64,000 nt of DNA from Terriglobia bacterium (GTDB lineage Bacteria; Acidobacteriota; Terriglobia; Terriglobales; Acidobacteriaceae). Below the pieces are notes generated by a model that saw only the letters and a list, made by a program, of their open reading frames with translations, ran no database searches and was not told the DNA's origin. Every line of letters starts with the position of its first letter. Position 1 is the first letter of the stretch. Position numbers and translations under genes: made by a program. The DNA lies in NCBI GenBank assembly GCA_032252755.1, contig JAVUPY010000010.1, positions 1-64,000 on the forward strand. The letters run 5' to 3'. Shown in pieces: positions 3,098-48,120 of the stretch.

Positions 3098-4900
3098 ATG
3101 CCACAAGAAGCTCATATGTCGGATGATCTGGCACAGGACGAGGGTTTGTTAAGGGAATTTGTCACCGAGAGCGAGGAGCAACTGCAGAGCATGGAGCAGG
3201 ACCTCCTCGGGATCGAAGGCGGGAGCGATAACGAGACTCTCAACCGGATTTTCCGCGCGATGCACACGATCAAGGGGACGTCGAGCTTCCTGCAGTTCGA
3301 TTTCATTGTCGAACTGACGCACGAGGCGGAAGACGTTTTGAACGCGATGCGGCGCGAGGAGTGCCGACCGACGGCGGCGATTACCGACGTGATGCTTCGG
3401 GTGTGCGATCGGGTGCGCGCCATGCTTGCCGACGTTGCGAATCATCGTGAACTGCAGTATGACAATGCGTCGCTGATTGTGGCGCTGAAGACGGCGCACG
3501 AGGGGGCGAATCACGTAAAGCTCGGCGGGATATTGTCGACCCAGCCGGTGATCGAGGAAGCGGATCTGAACGCAGCGCTGGCCGAGTCGCAGAGCACGGG
3601 GAAAAAACTCGGGCAAGTACTGGTCGAACACGAGATCGCGACGCCCACCCACATCGAGCAGGCGTTGAGCAAGCAGGGGATCGTGGCGTCGGTGTCGGAC
3701 AACACGACCATGCGTGTGGACGTGCGCAAACTGGATTTCCTGGTGAACCTGGTCGGGGAATTGGTGCTGGAGAGAAACCGCCTGGTGCAGTTAAGCCGAG
3801 AAGTCAGCGGGGGACAGATTTCTAAAGAACAGATGGACGGTGCGCTGAATTCCTCGGCGACGCGGTTGAGTTTCATCACAGATGAACTGCAGACGGCGAG
3901 CCTGCAGACGCGCATGGTGCCGATCGAGACGGTGTTCCGCCGATTGCCCAGAATGGTGCGGGATGTCGCGGGAGCGCTTGGGAAGCATGTCGAACTGGTG
4001 ATTCGCGGTCAGGAAACAGAGATCGACAAGACCATGGTAGAGCAGATCAGTGACCCGCTAGTGCACCTGGTGCGGAACGCGATCGACCACGGGATTGAGA
4101 CGGCGGAGAAGAGAAAAGCTGCGGGCAAGCTGGAGAACGGAACGCTTGTCGTCGAGGCGCGGCCAGAGGGCGATCAGATCGTGATTTGTGTCGCGGATGA
4201 TGGAAAAGGCATCGACCCGGAGTTGGTGTTGGCAAAGACAGTCGAGAAGGGGTTTGTTGCCGCAGAGCGGGCGAAGATGCTCTCGCGGCGGGAAATCCTG
4301 GACTTGATCTTTCTCCCGGGGATGAGTACGGCGGAAAAGGTGAACAATGTGTCGGGCCGCGGCGTCGGGATGGATGTGGTCCGCAGCAATGTGAAGAAGC
4401 TGAACGGGACGGTGGAATTGGAGAGCATGGAGGGAAAGGGCACGACGATCAGGATTCGAGCGCCGCTGACGATGGCAATTCTCCCAGTGCTGCTGGTGGG
4501 TGTCGGAGAGGAGGTGTATGCATTGCCGCTACATGCGGTGCAGGAAACGGTTCGGGTGGAGAACGCGGACCTTCATCTCGTCGATGGACGAGAGGTGCTT
4601 TGCCTGAGCGGTTGCACCGTTTCTGTGTTGCGGCTTGGCGAGATATTTAGCGTCAAAGGGGCACAGATGCAGAACTGCCGGGCGGTGATTCTGGCGCTGG
4701 GGGACATGCGGATTGCGCTGCTGGTAGACCGGTTGCTGGGACAGGAATCGACGGTGATCAAGCCAATGGGCGAGTTCCTACGCGAGGCCCCGAGCATTAC
4801 GGGAGCGACGATTGGCGGAGATGGACGCGTGAGGCTGGTGCTCGATCCGGCATCGCTGGTGGAAACAGCGAAACGTTCATGCGCAGGTCGTGTGCAATGA
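3098..4900 (+). CDS. cheA: Chemotaxis histidine kinase CheA with MshEN-like insert
   Basis: Soluble kinase that phosphorylates CheY and CheB in response to receptors. 600 residues. Domains in order: HPt (about 15-120) with phospho-acceptor H56 in AMHTIKGTSSFL; then, in place of a normal P2 CheY-binding domain, two tandem hairpin motifs of the MshEN/GSPII_E-N type (KLGGILSTQPVIEEADLNAA at 141-160 and KLGQVLVEHEIATPTHIEQA at 170-189); P3 dimerisation helices (about 205-285); HATPase with N-box LVRNAIDHGIE and GRGVGMDVV; and a CheW-like P5 domain at the end. Start is ATG 3098; ATG 3116 is an alternative that keeps the HPt domain. Overlaps cheR by 4 bases. No cheW is present in the window. Confidence 0.93.
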   Translation: MPQEAHMSDDLAQDEGLLREFVTESEEQLQSMEQDLLGIEGGSDNETLNRIFRAMHTIKGTSSFLQFDFIVELTHEAEDVLNAMRREECRPTAAITDVMLRVCDRVRAMLADVANHRELQYDNASLIVALKTAHEGANHVKLGGILSTQPVIEEADLNAALAESQSTGKKLGQVLVEHEIATPTHIEQALSKQGIVASVSDNTTMRVDVRKLDFLVNLVGELVLERNRLVQLSREVSGGQISKEQMDGALNSSATRLSFITDELQTASLQTRMVPIETVFRRLPRMVRDVAGALGKHVELVIRGQETEIDKTMVEQISDPLVHLVRNAIDHGIETAEKRKAAGKLENGTLVVEARPEGDQIVICVADDGKGIDPELVLAKTVEKGFVAAERAKMLSRREILDLIFLPGMSTAEKVNNVSGRGVGMDVVRSNVKKLNGTVELESMEGKGTTIRIRAPLTMAILPVLLVGVGEEVYALPLHAVQETVRVENADLHLVDGREVLCLSGCTVSVLRLGEIFSVKGAQMQNCRAVILALGDMRIALLVDRLLGQESTVIKPMGEFLREAPSITGATIGGDGRVRLVLDPASLVETAKRSCAGRVQ

Positions 4901-6701: not shown

Positions 6702-7819
6702 GAGAGGAAGCAAAAGCCCGGACTGTACGAGTGCTGGTCGTGGATGACAGTTCGTTCATCCGGCTGGCACTGAAGCGAATAATCCAGTCGGACTCCGAAC
6801 TGGAAGTCGTGGGTTGTGCGCATGGCGGATACGAGGCGCTTGATATGGCAGCAGAACTCGATCCCGACGTGGTCACAATGGATATCGAAATGCCGCGAAT
6901 GAACGGCTTGGAAGCCGTACAGGCGTTGATGGCGAGCAATCCGAGACCGGTGATCATGGTGAGTTCGCTGACGCAAGACGGAGCCGATGCCACGTTTCAG
7001 GCTTTGGAATATGGGGCGTTCGACTATGTCGCGAAGCATGGCGCGGGGGGACTGGATGTAACACAGATCCGGAGAGAGTTGATCGCGAAGATCAAGGCGG
7101 CGGCGGAGAGCCGGCTCCGGAACAGGCGTAAGAACGGGAGCATCCACAATGAGGTCTGGCGCCAGACCAGGGATCCGCGCGCGATGGGAGTGGCGCCCTC
7201 GTTGGTCTGTATCGGATCGTCGACGGGGGGACCGAGGGCGCTGCAGCAAATTCTACCGGTGCTTCCGGGGAATTTGCCGGTAGGCATTGTAATCATTCAG
7301 CACATGCCGCCTGGGTTCACCGCACCTTTCGCGGCGCGGTTGGACGGTATGTGCAGCATTCACGTGAAAGAAGCGGAGATGAATGACTTGATCGAGCCCG
7401 GAACGGTTCTGATTGCCCCCGCGGGGTGGCACGTCGCGATCCAACAGAAATCGTATTCGCGGTACGCTGTGCGGTTGACGAAGACTCCGAGCGACACGTT
7501 GCACATGCCTTCGGTGGACGTGACGATGTTGAGCGCGGCAGAAGTGCTGGGGCCTCGCGCAATGGGAGTCGTCCTGACGGGAATGGGAAACGATGGCGAG
7601 GCAGGGATGACCGCGATTCATGCGGCGGGCGGTTATACGGTGGCGCAGGACGAGGAGACGAGCGTCGTCTATGGAATGCCGAAGGCGTGCGCCACGGCGG
7701 GAGTGGTGAGCAAGGTCTTGCCGCTGCCGGAGATCGCGAATGAAATTATCGCCGCCGTGACACGGTGCTCTCACGGTGCAAGGGACGGCATCGGCATTGG
7801 GTCGCAGGTTGAGGTATGA
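6698..7819 (+). CDS. cheB: Chemotaxis methylesterase/glutamine deamidase CheB
   Basis: Response-regulator-controlled esterase that removes receptor methyl groups. The receiver domain (residues 10-125) has VVDDSS, the phosphorylation aspartate in VTMDIEMPRMNG and a lysine in the FDYVAKHG loop. The C-terminal methylesterase domain shows the catalytic Ser in IGSSTGGP, His in IIQHMP and Asp in GMGNDGEAG. 373 residues, normal length. Overlaps the HDOD gene by 4 bases. The last 49 bases overlap, tail to tail, the response-regulator gene on the other strand. Confidence 0.95.
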   Translation: MREEAKARTVRVLVVDDSSFIRLALKRIIQSDSELEVVGCAHGGYEALDMAAELDPDVVTMDIEMPRMNGLEAVQALMASNPRPVIMVSSLTQDGADATFQALEYGAFDYVAKHGAGGLDVTQIRRELIAKIKAAAESRLRNRRKNGSIHNEVWRQTRDPRAMGVAPSLVCIGSSTGGPRALQQILPVLPGNLPVGIVIIQHMPPGFTAPFAARLDGMCSIHVKEAEMNDLIEPGTVLIAPAGWHVAIQQKSYSRYAVRLTKTPSDTLHMPSVDVTMLSAAEVLGPRAMGVVLTGMGNDGEAGMTAIHAAGGYTVAQDEETSVVYGMPKACATAGVVSKVLPLPEIANEIIAAVTRCSHGARDGIGIGSQVEV

Positions 7820-8217
7820 GGTGGCGTTTGCTCCAGCACGTGCCGGACTTTGTCGGCGAGAGTGTCGAGCGTGAAAGGTTTTTGCAAGTAGTTGAGGTTG
7901 GGATCGGAAAAGCTTTCGCGCACGACGGCACGGTCGGTGTAGCCGGACATGAAGATGACCTTCAGCCCGGGTCGCAGGGCGAGCAGTTGATTCGCGAATT
8001 CACGGCCGTTTCTGCCGGGCATCACGACATCGGTGAGGAGAAGGTCGATGATGTCAATGTTCTCCCCATAGAGTTCCAACCCCTCATCGGCGTCGATGGC
8101 TTCAAGGACTTGATACCCGTGGAGTTCGAGGACTTCACGAGTGACGTTGCGAACAAAATCTTCGTCTTCGACGAGGAGGATGGTCTTGGGCGGCGCGGGT
8201 TCGGTGCGAGTTTCCAT
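7771..8217 (-). CDS. Single-domain response regulator (receiver only)
   Basis: 148-residue protein consisting of one receiver domain (residues 11-130): acidic pocket LLVEDED, phospho-acceptor in LLTDVVMPGRNG, the T/S position in FMSGYTDRAV and the conserved lysine in LQKPF. The sequence style (LRPGLKVIFMSGYTD) is that of receivers found at the end of hybrid kinases rather than CheY. It has a GGAG ribosome site and is convergent with cheB, overlapping it by 49 bases. Its cognate kinase is not evident; the short Pro-rich tail is of no known function. Confidence 0.88.
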   Translation of the reverse strand: METRTEPAPPKTILLVEDEDFVRNVTREVLELHGYQVLEAIDADEGLELYGENIDIIDLLLTDVVMPGRNGREFANQLLALRPGLKVIFMSGYTDRAVVRESFSDPNLNYLQKPFTLDTLADKVRHVLEQTPPHTSTCDPMPMPSLAP

Positions 8218-8619
8218 TCGGAGCTCCGTCAGAAGAAAAGCAAACGGAGTTCCAAACGAATTTGTGGCGAATGCGACTGGGATCAGGGATTTAGGCGCGG
8301 ATCGAGCGGGCTCACGACGGTTGCGGGTTCAGCTTCACTTAGGTTGATCCATTTTGGGAATCCAAAATAGGAAACGGAACTGGCGAAGATCGTCGCGCGT
8401 CCTTATGGAGAAGGTAGAACCACGATGCTCCGCGTCTCTTTGGAGCCTCGAGAGCTACTGAACTTCTTCAGAATTCTTTACAGTGAGAAGGCACGCGAGT
8501 GAATGATTTCACGGGAGGCGCATGGCACGCAGGTGCTACACTCCGTCCGCACATTCTTACTCATTTTTGCAGTTCGATCTGAGAGGCGCGGATCGAGCTG
8601 TTTCTGAAAGGATTCACTG
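8218..8619. other. 402-bp non-coding region with a 15-bp direct repeat and a small hairpin
   Basis: No gene is supported here. The 15-mer AGGCGCGGATCGAGC occurs exactly at 8293-8307 and 8584-8598. A perfect 7-bp inverted repeat, ATTTTGG-GAAT-CCAAAAT, lies at 8351-8368. The region must hold the divergent promoters for the response regulator (minus) and the M28 peptidase (plus), but no convincing -35/-10 pair could be picked. Confidence 0.6.
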
Positions 8620-10317
8620 GTGATGAGAAGCGGCCGAGTAGTGAACTCTGTGGTTATTGCTGCAATTGCATTGATATGCGCGGCGTGCGCGGTCCCGGTT
8701 GCGGCACAGAATTCTAGCGACAAGCCGGATCTTCAGATGGTGACGAAGATTCGAAATGAGGGTTTTCATAATTCCAAGGTGATGGAGATCATGGAGGACA
8801 TGTCGGACCGGTTGGGGCAGCGGCTTACGGGTTCGGCGAACCAGAAGCGAGCGAATGAATGGGCTCGCGACACCATGGCAGGCTGGGGATTGCAGAATGC
8901 GCACCTGGAGACGTTTCCGTTCGGGCGCGGATGGGAGACGGATGGAGCGACGGTGGAGATGATTTCTCCGGACCGTGCGCAACTTTATGTAATTCCCAAG
9001 GCGTGGACGCCTGGAACGAATGGGGTGGTGAAGGGCGAGGTTGTGCACCTCAATGCCACGACGAAAGAAGATCTGGAGAAACTGAAGGGCGCGCTCGCCG
9101 GCAAGATCGTGCTGCTGGGCGAAGTACGTGATTTGAAGCCACAGAACGAAGCAGCGCTGAAGCGCTACGACGATAAGGGTCTGTCGGAGATCGGCGCTTA
9201 CAACGTTCCAGGCGCGCGGTTTACGGATCCGACCGGGCGGGTCTTTTCACGCGAAGATATCATTCGACGGTTTGCGTTCCAACGCGAGCTGCAGAAGTTC
9301 ATTGCCGATGAGAAACCGGCGCTGGTGATCGAAGGCAGCCGCGGAGACGAGGGTTTGATCTTCGTTGGCGGCTCACAGGCATACAAGAAGGGCGAGGCTG
9401 AAGGAGTGCCGTGGGTATACATGGCGGCGGAGCATTTCAACCGGCTGGCGCGGCTGGCGGATCGCAAGGTGCCGGTGACGGTCGAGGCTGAGGTCAAGGC
9501 GAAGTTCGACGACAGCAATGACGGGAACTCGTGGAACACGGTCGCGGAAATCCCCGGCACCGATAAGAAGGATGAGATCGTAATGTGCGGAGGGCACATC
9601 GATTCGTGGCACGCAGGTACGGGCGCCACGGACGACGGCGCGGGCGTGGCGGTCACGATGGAGGCGATGCGGATTCTGCAATCGCTGGGAGTAAAGCCGC
9701 GTCGGACGATCCGGATCGGGTTGTGGGGCGGCGAAGAAGAAGGCCTGCTCGGCTCGCGCGCGTATGTTTCCGATCACTTTGGAAAGCGTGAAGCTCCGCC
9801 GCAACGGCCGGGGCAGGACAACGGTTTGCCGAGTTTCATGCGCGGCGAGCAGGGCACGCTGATGCTGAAGCAGGACCAGACAAAGGTCGCGGCATACTTC
9901 AACATCGATAACGGGACGGGGAAGCTGCGCGGGATTTATACGCAGGAGAATCCGATGGTGGCGCCGATCTTCGAGGCGTGGGGCGAGCCGTTCCGCGATC
10001 TTGGGTTCACAACGATCACGAACCGGAACACGGGCGGGACGGATCACCTGTCGTTCGATGCCGTCGGGATTCCGGGATTCCAGTTCATCCAGGACCCGGT
10101 GGAATACTTCTCGCGAACGCATCACTCGAACATGGACGTGTACGATCGCATTCAGCGCGAGGACATGATGCAGGCATCGGTGATCCTGGCATCCTTCTTA
10201 TATAACGCTGCGATGCGTGATGAGATGCTGCCACGGAAAGCTCTTCCAAAAGATACGAAGATGGAAGAGGCACCGAAGCCGCCCGAGCCGGTGAAGGCAG
10301 GGAAGAAGAAGAAATAA
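8620..10317 (+). CDS. Secreted M28 family zinc peptidase
   Basis: Predicted exported aminopeptidase or carboxypeptidase of family M28. The N-terminus has a signal peptide (hydrophobic SVVIAAIALICAACAVPVAA, then AQNSS). A PA-like inserted region precedes the catalytic domain. Di-zinc motifs are visible: GGHIDSWHAGTGATDDGAG (His and Asp ligands), LWGGEEEGLLGS (catalytic Glu and Glu ligand), and a late YFSRTHHSNMD (His ligand). 565 residues with a Lys-rich tail. GTG 8620 sits 7 bases after AAAGGA; ATG 8623 immediately follows and is equally possible. Single-gene unit ending at a clear terminator. Confidence 0.92.
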   Translation: MMRSGRVVNSVVIAAIALICAACAVPVAAQNSSDKPDLQMVTKIRNEGFHNSKVMEIMEDMSDRLGQRLTGSANQKRANEWARDTMAGWGLQNAHLETFPFGRGWETDGATVEMISPDRAQLYVIPKAWTPGTNGVVKGEVVHLNATTKEDLEKLKGALAGKIVLLGEVRDLKPQNEAALKRYDDKGLSEIGAYNVPGARFTDPTGRVFSREDIIRRFAFQRELQKFIADEKPALVIEGSRGDEGLIFVGGSQAYKKGEAEGVPWVYMAAEHFNRLARLADRKVPVTVEAEVKAKFDDSNDGNSWNTVAEIPGTDKKDEIVMCGGHIDSWHAGTGATDDGAGVAVTMEAMRILQSLGVKPRRTIRIGLWGGEEEGLLGSRAYVSDHFGKREAPPQRPGQDNGLPSFMRGEQGTLMLKQDQTKVAAYFNIDNGTGKLRGIYTQENPMVAPIFEAWGEPFRDLGFTTITNRNTGGTDHLSFDAVGIPGFQFIQDPVEYFSRTHHSNMDVYDRIQREDMMQASVILASFLYNAAMRDEMLPRKALPKDTKMEEAPKPPEPVKAGKKKK

Positions 10318-43777: not shown

Positions 43778-44587
43778 ATGGGATCCGCCGACACTGCTTA
43801 CAAGATGATGGACCAGCACGAGCGAGACCGCCTGATCACGGAACAATTACCGCAGGTGCGCTACATCGCGCGGCGAATCCATGAGCGCTTGCCGCAGCAC
43901 GTGCAACTGGAAGACCTGGTGCATGCGGGAGTACTGGGACTGATTGACGCGGTGCACAAGTACGATTCGACCAAGCAGGTTCAGTTCAAGTCGTATGCGA
44001 AGTTCCGCATTCGGGGCGCAATCCTCGATAGTCTGCGCGAATTGGATTGGAGTCCGCGAGACCTTCGACGGAAGGCGCGGCGGATCGAAGAGGCGACGGC
44101 AAGTTTGAATTCAAAGCTGGGACGCGCGGCGAGCGAAACGGAAATAGCGGCAGAATTACACATCGACGTGGAAGAACTCCACCATATCCTCGGGGAACTC
44201 GGCGGACTCGACTTGGGGAGCTTGCAGATCGAATCGGCGTCGGGAGGTGAGATGGAGGACTTATGCGAATATGTGGCCGGAAATCCTGAAGAGAGCCCGT
44301 ACTTCTTGTGCCTGCAGTCGGAGATGAAGTCGGCGCTGGCGCGAGCAATTGGCGAGCTAGGTGAGAAAGAACAGCAGGTTTTATCGCTCTACTACTTCGA
44401 AGAGCTGACGATGAAAGAAGTGGGCGAAGTGCTTGGTGTCGGCGAGTCTCGAGTTTCACAAATTCATTCGCTTGCGTTGGTTCGGTTGCGTGCGCGAATG
44501 CAGGAGTTGCTGGTTTCCAAGATGATGCCGGGGCAGACGGGTCATTTAGTCGATGCGTTGCTGGAGGCGTCATGGAAAAGGTGCTGA
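43778..44587 (+). CDS. fliA: RNA polymerase sigma-28 factor FliA
   Basis: Directs transcription of late flagellar genes. 269 residues; ATG behind AAGGAGG. Regions 2 (LEDLVHAGVLGLIDAVHKYD, FKSYAKFRIRGAILDSLREL), 3 (ARRIEEATASLNSKLGRAAS) and 4 (LSLYYFEELTMKEVGEVLGV, ESRVSQIHSLALVRLR) are intact. Its promoters are visible at flagellin and flgM in this window. Overlaps fliM by 16 bases. Confidence 0.97.
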   Translation: MGSADTAYKMMDQHERDRLITEQLPQVRYIARRIHERLPQHVQLEDLVHAGVLGLIDAVHKYDSTKQVQFKSYAKFRIRGAILDSLRELDWSPRDLRRKARRIEEATASLNSKLGRAASETEIAAELHIDVEELHHILGELGGLDLGSLQIESASGGEMEDLCEYVAGNPEESPYFLCLQSEMKSALARAIGELGEKEQQVLSLYYFEELTMKEVGEVLGVGESRVSQIHSLALVRLRARMQELLVSKMMPGQTGHLVDALLEASWKRC

Positions 44588-45534
44588 ACCAGGATCAAAT
44601 CGATGCGATGGTCAGGGCAGCGCGTGGTCGCCCGACAGAAGGCATTGCAAATGAAGAACGTGTAAAACCATGGAATTGTGCCGAAAGCGGACAGATCGGG
44701 AGGGAATCGCTGCGTGCGATCACGCAACTGCATGAAGCATTTGCCCGCAATCTTACGCACTCATTGGGAGCATATCTGAGAGTGGTATTCGACGCGAATC
44801 TGGTTTCGGTAGAACAGCTGCCGTACAGCGATGTACTGACGCGGTTTCCGGAACTGACTTATCTCGCAACAGCACACATCGAACCAGCGAATGCGAGCGT
44901 TGCGTTTCAAATGGACTTGTCTCTGGCATTTCCGATCATCGATCTACTGCTGGGCGGCATCGGCGAGGCGGAGGCGGAAGTGCGCGAGATCACGGAAATC
45001 GAGGAGCAGATCCTGGATGGAGTGGTGCGAATCGTCTGCAAGGAATTGGAAATATCGTGGCAGCCTGCAGGGCTGGCGGTGTCATTCGAGCATAGGCAGA
45101 CGCCGGGGCAAATGCAGCAACTGATGGCGCCGAACGAAAAGACACTGGCTCTGAGCTTCGAGATTCGCATGGCTGAGAGCCGGGGAGTATTCAACGTGGT
45201 CTGCCCGTCATCTGTCTCGAACATTCTGTTGCGGAAGCTCGCGGACAACTGGGCATACCGGCGGCCCAAAGAACTATCCGAGTGTAGCCAGCAACTGATC
45301 GCCCGTTTGCTGGAGTGTCCGTTCCTGGCGGAACTCTCGCTCGAACCGCAGCCGATGGATGCGCGGCGATTGGTGGAACTTGTGCCAGGGGAGACCGTTC
45401 AATTCGAGCGGCAGGTGGAACAACCGGTCCGGTTGCTGGTTGCAAATCAATCTTGTTTCGAGGCAGACGTGGTGCGAATAGGTTCGCGAAGGGCGGGCCA
45501 TATCGGCGCCCGGATTGTGCCCTTGCAGAGCTAG
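44572..45534 (+). CDS. fliM: Flagellar motor switch protein FliM
   Basis: C-ring protein that receives CheY-P. 320 residues. The N-terminal CheY-binding helix reads VLNQDQIDAMVRAA; the CheC-like middle domain (about 45-235) contains DLLLGGIGEAEAEVREITEI; the C-terminal SpoA domain (about 245-318) binds FliN. Start lies inside the end of fliA. Confidence 0.95.
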   Translation: MEKVLNQDQIDAMVRAARGRPTEGIANEERVKPWNCAESGQIGRESLRAITQLHEAFARNLTHSLGAYLRVVFDANLVSVEQLPYSDVLTRFPELTYLATAHIEPANASVAFQMDLSLAFPIIDLLLGGIGEAEAEVREITEIEEQILDGVVRIVCKELEISWQPAGLAVSFEHRQTPGQMQQLMAPNEKTLALSFEIRMAESRGVFNVVCPSSVSNILLRKLADNWAYRRPKELSECSQQLIARLLECPFLAELSLEPQPMDARRLVELVPGETVQFERQVEQPVRLLVANQSCFEADVVRIGSRRAGHIGARIVPLQS

Positions 45535-45557: not shown

Positions 45558-46325
45558 ATGGAACGGTTTGTTGAGACATTTTGCCAGGCAGCGGCTTCGG
45601 TGCTATCGCAGTGTTCCGGGCAGGAATGGAAAGTGCGGTCGGACGTATCCGTGATTGAGAACAGAGAGATTCGTGCGGTGCTTGCGACCTCAGGAGGACT
45701 CAATGGCGAGCTGATGGTTGAGTTCAGCCACAAGATTGCGCACGAACTGGCGCTGGCACTGTTAGGCCCGGAAGCCCAGGTCGCAGAAGCCGAAGAACGC
45801 GAAGCATTGACGGAATTATTGCGGCAGGTCTGCGGAACAGCTGCGACGGCGCTGCGACCGAGATTCTCGGAAGTGTCGTTCGCGGTTGCTCTTGAGGATC
45901 CGAAATGGACCCCTCAGGCGTTTGCGAGTCTTGTGCTCGAGAAACCGGAGTGGTCGGGAGCGGCAAGGTTGTGCTTCAGCGAGGAACTGCTGGCCGGGAT
46001 GCGCGACCTTGTGATCGAGACGGACCGTCCGGCGCTGGAAGGGGCACAAAGTAGCGGGAATCTTGATCTGCTCATGGATGTGCAACTGGGCGTTCGGCTG
46101 CGATTCGGGAGCCGCCGAATGCGTTTGCGCGAAATCCTGGAACTCCAACCGGGATCAGTGGTGGAACTAGATCGGCAAGTGCAGGAACCGGTGGACCTGC
46201 TGGTGGACAAGAAACTGATTGGACGGGGTGAAGTCGTGGTGGTGGACGGTCGGTATGGATTACGAGTAGGAGAAGTCGTAACCGCGCGCGAGAGAGTTGA
46301 ATCCCTGAGAAAGGATCCCAGATGA
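45558..46325 (+). CDS. FliY-like switch protein (CheX/CheC-like domain plus FliN domain)
   Basis: 255 residues. The C-terminal SpoA/FliN domain (about 165-240: LLMDVQLGVRLRFGSRRMRL, SVVELDRQVQEPVDLLVDKK) is clear. The N-terminal 150 residues resemble the CheC/CheX/FliY phosphatase fold. The catalytic E-x2-N appears as E86-L-L-R89, so the Asn is lost and phosphatase activity is unlikely. ATG behind GAGGA; overlaps the next gene by 4 bases. A second FliN-only protein is encoded at 38202, so the C-ring may use two FliN forms. Confidence 0.82.
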   Translation: MERFVETFCQAAASVLSQCSGQEWKVRSDVSVIENREIRAVLATSGGLNGELMVEFSHKIAHELALALLGPEAQVAEAEEREALTELLRQVCGTAATALRPRFSEVSFAVALEDPKWTPQAFASLVLEKPEWSGAARLCFSEELLAGMRDLVIETDRPALEGAQSSGNLDLLMDVQLGVRLRFGSRRMRLREILELQPGSVVELDRQVQEPVDLLVDKKLIGRGEVVVVDGRYGLRVGEVVTARERVESLRKDPR

Positions 46326-47164
46326 TTACAGAGTTGATGAATACCGCGCGTCGAATGGGTTCAAAAATCAATTGGGATGAACTGGCGCCAAGATGCAGAT
46401 GGGAGCGTTGCAGGCGGCGAACGCGATGGCAGGGAGTGCTGCGTAAGTCCGTGGGCGTGCGCTTTGCCGATCAGTGGTACTGCGGGGCAGAGTGCCTACG
46501 GGAGGAATTGGAACGCCGATTCGAAGCATTACTCGGCGAGCGACGAGGAGCGGGAAATCGTAAGCACCGAACGCCTGTTGGCCTTCTTTTGCTGTCGCGC
46601 GGCATTCTCGACGAGCCTCAGCTCTACGCGGCGTTGCAGGCGCATCGGGAAACCGGAGCGCGCGTTGGAGAGTGTCTGCGGCGTCTTGGAATCGCCAACG
46701 AAGGCCAGATAACGGCGGCGCTGGCCGTGCAATGGGGCTGTCCGGTGTATCCCGCTGGAGAACATCAGGGTTGTGAGCGACTGGTGCCGCGACTCCTTCA
46801 GCTGAAACACCGAATGACTCCGGTTCATTTGGCTGACTCCGGGAATTGCATGTTTGTCGGTTTTGCCCAGGACGTAAATTACACGGTGCTGCTGGCGATT
46901 GAGCAGATGCTGGATTGCCATGCCGAGCCGTGCATGATTGATGAGAGCGAACTCGAACGTCGACTCGGTAGTGACGCCGGCAACCGCGATGACGAGGTGG
47001 CCTTCACGACGGCGTTGACGGCAAAGGAAATGGCAATGAGTGTCGCGGGATATGCGGAGCGACTAGGTGCGGACCGGGTGCGCGTACACGGTTGTCTTGA
47101 CCACATTTGGGTTCGGGTGGAGAGAGCAGCCGGGAAGTTCGACCTGTTCTTCCAGCGGCCGTAA
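46322..47164 (+). CDS. MshEN-like domain protein with N-terminal cysteine cluster
   Basis: 280 residues, unknown function. A C25-x4-C30-x23-C54-x3-C58 arrangement suggests a small zinc site. Next (about 83-137) are two tandem MshEN/GSPII_E-N hairpin motifs: VGLLLLSRGILDEPQLYAAL and RVGECLRRLGIANEGQITAA, the second followed by LAVQ and matching the c-di-GMP-binding consensus well. The C-terminal half (about 140-280) keeps PilB/GspE-N-like features (WGCPVYP, CMFVGFAQDVNYTVLLAIEQ) but no ATPase. It overlaps the FliY-like gene (ATGA), so it is a bona fide member of the fliM operon. Confidence 0.75.
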   Translation: MITELMNTARRMGSKINWDELAPRCRWERCRRRTRWQGVLRKSVGVRFADQWYCGAECLREELERRFEALLGERRGAGNRKHRTPVGLLLLSRGILDEPQLYAALQAHRETGARVGECLRRLGIANEGQITAALAVQWGCPVYPAGEHQGCERLVPRLLQLKHRMTPVHLADSGNCMFVGFAQDVNYTVLLAIEQMLDCHAEPCMIDESELERRLGSDAGNRDDEVAFTTALTAKEMAMSVAGYAERLGADRVRVHGCLDHIWVRVERAAGKFDLFFQRP

Positions 47165-47245: not shown

Positions 47246-47629
47246 ATGAAAGTTCGGGCCATGATAGTAGACGATTCGTCGGTCATGAGAAAGATCGTGG
47301 AGAGATCGTTGCGGCAGGCTGGGATCGAGATATCCCAGGTTGTGGAAGCGGGCAATGGTTCCGAGGCGCTTGGTCTTCTGCAAACTCAATCCGTGGATCT
47401 TATACTGTGCGACATCAACATGCCGGTAATGGACGGGTTAGAGTTTGTGCGGCGAGCTGCGAAGCTTGAGAATGGCCCGCGAGCCCCGATCGTGATGATT
47501 ACAACCGAAGGCAGCGAGTCGAATGTTGTGCACGCATTGCAGGCGGGAGCGAAGGGATACATTCGCAAACCATTTACAGCCGACCAGGTGAAAGAGCAGG
47601 TCACTCCTCTGCTGGAAAGGACCATATGA
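47246..47629 (+). CDS. cheY: Chemotaxis response regulator CheY
   Basis: Single receiver of 127 residues that carries the signal from CheA to FliM. Acidic pocket IVDDSSVMR, phospho-acceptor in LILCDINMPVMDG, T in ITTEG, and lysine in YIRKPFTADQV. It overlaps cheX by 4 bases and is adjacent to the switch genes, which supports CheY over a general regulator. Confidence 0.9.
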   Translation: MKVRAMIVDDSSVMRKIVERSLRQAGIEISQVVEAGNGSEALGLLQTQSVDLILCDINMPVMDGLEFVRRAAKLENGPRAPIVMITTEGSESNVVHALQAGAKGYIRKPFTADQVKEQVTPLLERTI

Positions 47630-48120
47630 GCGCGGCATCCGCGATAGATGCGAACTGGGAAACCGTCGAGCACTGGCGCTCCATGCTGGAAGTGGCCACA
47701 TGCGAGGTGTTCGAGATCGTGTTGGGTAGCAGCCTGGAGGCAACCAATAAGGTGTCAAACGGAACCGTTCACGAATACACAGCCATCGTTGGATTGGCGG
47801 GCTCAATGTGCGGAGTCATCACCCTGCGTTGCACAGCAGGTTCGGCTGCATTGATGGCTTCGAAGATGCTGGGCGTTCCAATTGTGGAAGCTGGTGGCCA
47901 GAGCCGCGATGCAATCGGGGAAGTCTGCAACATGATCGCGGGAAACTTTAAGACCAAGCTCACGAACCTCGCCAGCCAGTGCATGCTTTCTGTGCCAACC
48001 GTAATTACGGGGGCAGATTACCAACTGCATTCGCTCTCCGAAGGGGCCACGGCGGAAGCGACTTTGCGATTTGAAGATGAAATCCTTTGCGTCACTCTAG
48101 AGGTGACTGCGACGGTATAG
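47626..48120 (+). CDS. cheX: CheY-P phosphatase CheX
   Basis: 164 residues of the CheC/CheX/FliY family. The catalytic pair is present as E99-V-C-N102 in DAIGEVCNMIAGNFKTKL. Translationally coupled to cheY, so it most likely dephosphorylates that protein, in place of CheZ, which is not seen. Confidence 0.9.
   Translation: MSAASAIDANWETVEHWRSMLEVATCEVFEIVLGSSLEATNKVSNGTVHEYTAIVGLAGSMCGVITLRCTAGSAALMASKMLGVPIVEAGGQSRDAIGEVCNMIAGNFKTKLTNLASQCMLSVPTVITGADYQLHSLSEGATAEATLRFEDEILCVTLEVTATV

Follow-up and report, generated by a model that had tools for sequence, protein, structure and literature searches.

The window analysed here, a 64,000-nucleotide stretch of DNA from a Terriglobia bacterium, carries a run of flagellar and chemotaxis genes whose order, read from open reading frames and Pfam matches, is flhA-fliA-fliM-fliY-subject gene-cheY-cheX-flgF-flgG (table 1). 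The subject gene is a complete frame of 280 codons, open throughout in sequence and translation. A sequence-only reading of this DNA had described its product as a stand-alone MshEN-like protein with a four-cysteine N terminus, encoded by a gene that shares an ATGA overlap with a FliY-like gene and lies before cheY and cheX, and this description holds in each of its parts.

Table 1. Coordinates of the subject gene, its parts and its neighbours in the window.
Feature	Position	Strand	Basis
Stand-alone Cys4-MshEN protein, 280 aa (subject gene)	46322..47164	+	ORF; NF053729; AlphaFold model mb9e47f95f740; Foldseek to MshE
ATGA overlap, ATG of subject gene (46322) on TGA of fliY	46322..46325	+	sequence
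Predicted zinc finger, C25-x4-C30...C54-x3-C58	46394..46495	+	conserved Cys; beta hairpin then helix in model
MshEN motif I, residues 85-108	46574..46645	+	alignments; P85 at MshE Arg9 place, H108 at Gln32 place
MshEN motif II, residues 114-137, complete (R114, G116, L134, Q137)	46661..46732	+	NF053729; alignments
MshEN C-terminal subdomain, residues 139-218	46736..46975	+	profile-profile match to PilB until ~220; model
C-terminal beta-alpha-beta-beta-beta domain with W263-x-R265	46976..47161	+	fold prediction in isolation
fliA (flagellar sigma factor), upstream in same gene run	43778..44587	+	ORF; FliA-FliM-FliY-gene order kept in relatives
fliM	44572..45534	+	PF02154, 1.3e-36
fliY, CheX-like N terminus and FliN-type C-ring domain	45558..46325	+	PF01052, 1.9e-22; PF13690, 1.4e-5
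cheY	47246..47629	+	PF00072, 4.6e-30
cheX (CheY-P phosphatase)	47626..48120	+	PF13690, 4.3e-20
MshEN motif inside CheA (3098-4900)	3518..3676	+	NF053729, 9.9e-13; CheA domains by Pfam

The N-terminal region of the neighbouring FliY is itself CheX-like (PF13690, E = 1.4e-5) and, judged by eye, is without the E-x2-N active site of CheC/CheX; a separate CheX is encoded downstream of it.

The profile search for MshEN proposed in the sequence-only reading identifies the central domain: the NCBIfam model of the MshE-related c-di-GMP motif (NF053729) matches residues 87-137 (E = 2.5e-10; 40 bits against a curated cut-off of 38), and its cut-off is also exceeded by the ten relatives tested, members from other classes included. 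A Pfam search of the window protein gave no match, to PF05157 or to any other family; four members of the family (L050, L155, L156 and L162) do exceed the PF05157 cut-off, and the protein as a whole falls into no named family of Pfam or NCBIfam. With phmmer against the PDB, the window protein matches MshE (5htl, E = 9.7e-8) as well as PilB and PilF structures. An AlphaFold model of the 280-residue protein, built with 74 homologues, is of high confidence (pLDDT 91.8, pTM 0.86), and its best Foldseek match in the PDB is Vibrio cholerae MshE with c-di-GMP (5htl; E = 2.6e-8, TM 0.76 by target), the top matches being MshE, PilB-N and PilF-GSPII. Both the model and Foldseek thus place in the protein an MshEN fold, with a four-helix N-subdomain and an alpha/beta C-subdomain. 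Three parts can be told apart in the model: a Cys4 hairpin-plus-helix at the N terminus, a full MshEN domain (approximately residues 84-218) and a C-terminal W-x-R domain.

Among 75 aligned members in the named-record set, the four cysteines are kept in 72, 74, 71 and 72, they recur in aligned members from other classes, and alignments and model together give the knuckle-plus-helix arrangement of a zinc finger, which would bind zinc, although the Cys4 region matched no zinc-finger family in Pfam. The C-terminal domain folds on its own in prediction (pLDDT 86, pTM 0.70), and as a separately folded unit it has no significant match in the PDB, PilB/GspE included. The idea that this domain is a remnant of the start of the PilB/GspE N2 domain, prompted by visual similarity and by a global alignment that was forced, was rejected, as the local profile alignment ends at ~220 and the PDB offers no significant match.

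Kinship of the MshEN region with PilB raises the possibility that the whole protein is what remains of a PilB/GspE ATPase (MshEN and part of N2), preserved in a flagellar locus by chance. The region does align with PilB of the same genomes; however, the homology ends near residue 220 in local profile alignment, the C-terminal domain alone has no PilB/GspE counterpart, conservation of the Cys4 finger and of the W-x-R domain extends throughout the phylum, and PilB forms a separate clade in a tree of the MshEN region (support 100/100). No RecA-like ATPase domain follows MshEN, the protein ending at residue 280. We consider a chance remnant extremely improbable. The topology of the tree is consistent with a single origin of the flagellar family.

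Turning to the relatives, a family profile search of 61 genomes (the window's own and its relatives) recovered homologues in 22 genomes at 23 loci, the additional locus being a second copy in genome G028. In all 23 loci, and hence in 22/22 gene-bearing genomes, the gene immediately follows fliY, which in turn comes after fliA(-fliM). The two genes usually overlap, by 4 bases or slightly more, or are separated by no more than ~25 bases. All 22 gene-bearing genomes are among the 27 that are FliM-positive; the 34 FliM-negative genomes of this set gave PilB-type matches or none. A sample of 250 genomes of the class, in which family matches (E<=3.5e-63) stand clear of PilB-type matches (E>=1e-25) by a wide gap, has the gene in 66/132 FliM-positive against 0/118 FliM-negative genomes, counts that ignore shared ancestry. 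Five families (f1, f3, f5, f7 and f8) together account for these, with the gene in 66/74 of their genomes; families f4 and f6 lack it in the class sample though their FliM is canonical by score.

A wider scan of GTDB genomes, whose query was a 7-row alignment and the pattern A[LV][AG]xQW[GSN]CPV (columns that the pattern fixes, so that conservation there is not counted as evidence), returned 80 loci, nearly all of them with an Acidobacteriota label. In ~72 of the 75 loci that have upstream sequence, the next gene upstream is fliY (70 found automatically and two in which overlapping stop-to-stop frames reversed the order). The sequence-only reading had tied the gene to the motor switch genes, which is borne out, but the constant neighbour is fliY and not the fliM named in its proposed checks: in five genomes (G010, G021, G160, G179 and G199) fliM lies elsewhere and fliA, fliY and the gene are still together. 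Since it is fliY, and not the relocated fliM, that the gene has remained beside, we regard FliY as the more probable partner. Loci L138, L139, L153 and L154 have fliM out of the fliA-fliY run, with fliY remaining beside the subject gene; in L139, fliM sits within a cheB-cheR-cheX cluster.

Additional copies in L042, L077 and L080 are fliM-fliY-gene sets adjoining genes for FlrC/HK/RR-type regulators. Such surroundings (at L042 and L077), together with the presence of fliA in the same gene run, are what would be expected if the protein were a c-di-GMP-responsive regulator of flagellar expression or an export checkpoint (acting, e.g., on FliA/FlgM or sigma-54 regulators), with a finger that binds nucleic acid or a regulator and not the rotor. 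We judge this improbable: fliM and fliY accompany the gene in those very copies, of all neighbours fliY, and not fliA or flgM, is the nearest and the most constant, and a Pfam search detected no DNA-binding family. The second set in L042 (genome G028; 7305-10157) is additional to the main flagellar locus and is a duplicated switch module.

The association extends to the rest of the phylum. Full-length homologues with the same three-part architecture occur in other classes (families f20, f37, f41, f46, f50, f59, f65, f71 and f75), with E-values of 1e-36 to 1e-46 under the class model and up to 1e-102 under a broader one, and fliM-fliY lies upstream in 18 of the 20 loci read; of the remaining two, one precedes flgF and is cut off by the contig edge, and the other (G510) is beside tatD and secDF. 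Across a phylum sample, 56/103 genomes with FliM over the cut-off carry the gene, against 0/293 without (Fisher p ~1e-39, a value that ignores ancestry). FliM-positive families f6, f36, f34, f28 and f22 lack it. Adjacency to fliY and co-occurrence with FliM tie the gene genetically to the switch complex, and it is beside fliM-fliY in nearly all gene-bearing relatives. The finding is larger than first stated, a lineage-wide, switch-linked MshEN protein and not a one-off. The linkage to fliY is tight and ancient, and, like the fold, the architecture and the absence from the FliM-negative genomes sampled, it is a computed result; synteny of this kind is evidence of functional linkage and does not show contact. 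The G510 copy (family f65; L171 6249-7100) is divergent, with tatD, secD, secF and tgt as neighbours and no flagellar genes, and is either a relocated copy or a member of a distinct subfamily.

Whether the protein responds to c-di-GMP depends on its two half-sites. The two motifs of MshE share the ligand, half of the c-di-GMP molecule to each, and the contacts are made by Arg9/Arg38, clusters of Leu, Gly11/Gly40 and Gln32/Gln61 (PMC5013675). Against the full R-L-G...L-x3-L-x2-Q pattern, motif II of the window protein is complete (R114-V-G116...G123...L134-x2-Q137), as the sequence-only reading had noted, and motif I has P85 and H108. In the 75-member alignment, R83 and P85 are each found in 73/75, G116 in 74/75 and Gln at 108 in 70/75, and position 114 is occupied by Arg in 54 members and by Lys in 19; nearly all Terriglobia members have Pro where MshE has Arg9. 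Members from other classes have canonical motifs, K/R-L-G...Q in motif I and R/K-L-G...Q in motif II, both being complete in L161, L164 (RLG...Q and RLG...Q) and L165, and also in L155 with Lys at position 1 (KLG). Work on PilF offers a guide to the departures: c-di-GMP is bound by GSPII-B whether position 1 is Lys (6 nM) or an engineered Leu (2 nM), and GSPII-C, also a binder, carries Pro at that position in one motif (PMC11731258), whereas GSPII-A, with the same Gln-to-His change at the motif end plus other changes, does not bind c-di-GMP (PMC11731258, PMC12002112). On the strength of these comparisons and of the canonical motifs in other classes, c-di-GMP binding is likely for the family; for the window protein itself, with Pro for Arg and His for Gln in motif I, the affinity is uncertain. 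The altered pocket (P85, H108) may give the window's lineage a different affinity or nucleotide preference.

The genome as a whole has 11 GGDEF and 31 PilZ matches, and c-di-GMP can be made, given the 11 GGDEF loci. The MshEN c-di-GMP motif is found in only three of its proteins: PilB, CheA and the subject protein. The sequence-only reading had pointed to CheA as sharing the module. The MshEN-type insert in CheA, between the Hpt and dimerisation domains, is real, but it is ~42 kb away from the subject gene, and in relatives CheA-MshEN is sporadic and not co-inherited with the gene. It also occurs in FliM-negative genomes, and we rejected it as support.

We hypothesize that the subject protein probably lets c-di-GMP act on the flagellar motor of these Acidobacteriota. 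From the genomes and structures we infer binding of c-di-GMP and zinc, contact with FliY and an effect on rotation, and we lean, by a modest margin over even, toward a dedicated c-di-GMP effector of the Acidobacteriota flagellar switch that docks on FliY. The gene would be translated together with that of the C-ring protein FliY, and the predicted zinc finger and/or the C-terminal W-x-R domain would probably dock on it; c-di-GMP, on filling the two-motif MshEN pocket, would alter the shape or affinity of the effector, and the altered effector would change how the rotor switches, how fast it turns or how it is assembled (compare YcgR and the Cle proteins, which have other folds). The sequence-only reading had offered a link between c-di-GMP and the switch as a candidate, and phylum-wide conservation and the canonical motifs of other classes strengthen it. 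A more far-reaching form of the idea, plausible although we would not bet on it, is that a phylum-wide class of Cys4-MshEN-W-x-R switch receptors acts on FliY, is unrelated to YcgR and Cle and predates the split of several classes, with the Terriglobia pocket (Pro at Arg9) re-tuned to another affinity or ligand, e.g., cGAMP.

Overlapping genes and constant adjacency to fliY would also suit a co-translated chaperone or structural adaptor, serving either the C-ring or the FliY-FliH-FliI export side. MshEN would then be a protein-binding scaffold and no more, and the window's lineage would have given up nucleotide binding. Pro where MshE has Arg9 in 73/75 members and His in the window protein fit such a loss, there are domains of MshEN type with no c-di-GMP binding (XpsE, PMC5013675; PilF GSPII-A, PMC12002112), and the PilB N-domain binds a PilZ protein in solved complexes (7lko). 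However, motif II and Gln108 are otherwise well kept (Q in 70/75, G116 in 74/75), both motifs are canonical in other classes, and the gene has been lost where fliM-fliY is kept (L140, L142-L146 and L151), an improbable fate for a protein needed in assembly. The subject gene is not essential for a switch, since some lineages have fliM-fliY without it. An assembly partner is therefore rather unlikely in our estimation, and an effector of the switch is the reading that we retain.

Such an effector would be of a known kind with a new architecture, MshEN as a separate switch-linked protein, which is our best reading of its place among described systems. It shares with V. cholerae MshE (PF05157/NF053729) the fold, the two 24-residue motifs, the 5-residue spacer and, in its other-class members, the full K/R-L-G...Q pattern, but it has no ATPase, carries a Cys4 finger before MshEN and a new domain at the C terminus, has Pro instead of Arg9 in the window's lineage and is encoded in a fliY operon and not a pilus or secretion operon. 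The closest parallels to its proposed role are the flagellar brake YcgR, a c-di-GMP effector on the rotor that binds FliG/FliM/MotA (PMC9303241), and the Caulobacter Cle proteins (CleA, CleD), whose c-di-GMP-dependent docking on FliM tunes the motor (PMC5677366); YcgR, however, is a PilZ fold that is not co-translated with a switch protein, and the Cle proteins have a CheY-like fold with an arginine-rich motif, unrelated in sequence to the subject protein. Fusions of MshEN to CheA and CheX, which likewise couple it to chemotaxis, have already been listed (Wang et al. 2016; PMC5013675), and the window CheA is one such; they are fused to signalling enzymes, whereas the subject protein is separate and tied to FliY. 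Caulobacter FssF, an accessory protein of the C-ring, connects chemotaxis with the response to surfaces (PMC11580411), but is a FliN homologue and is not described as an MshEN protein. A search limited to the open literature yielded no paper describing a Cys4-MshEN switch-linked protein, nor any account of the means by which c-di-GMP influences swimming in Acidobacteriota. The phylum ranks among the most abundant in soil, and the family offers a concrete single-gene candidate with a likely partner, FliY, and residues that can be tested; if the proposal is true, the MshEN fold would join the PilZ and CheY-like folds as routes of c-di-GMP to the rotor.

Two variations on the locus were also observed. 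A truncated form, from motif II onward and with the same YGKIG junction, is found in L091 (2-685), L093 (1040-2065, there fused to a receiver domain) and L097 (4863-5606); it looks like a deletion scar where neighbouring flagellar genes were lost, with the frame still open. In other loci, a gene for an HDOD-domain protein lies between fliY and the subject gene (L155, L157, L161, L162 and L172) or after the subject gene (L058, L063 and L064), suggesting another signalling partner.
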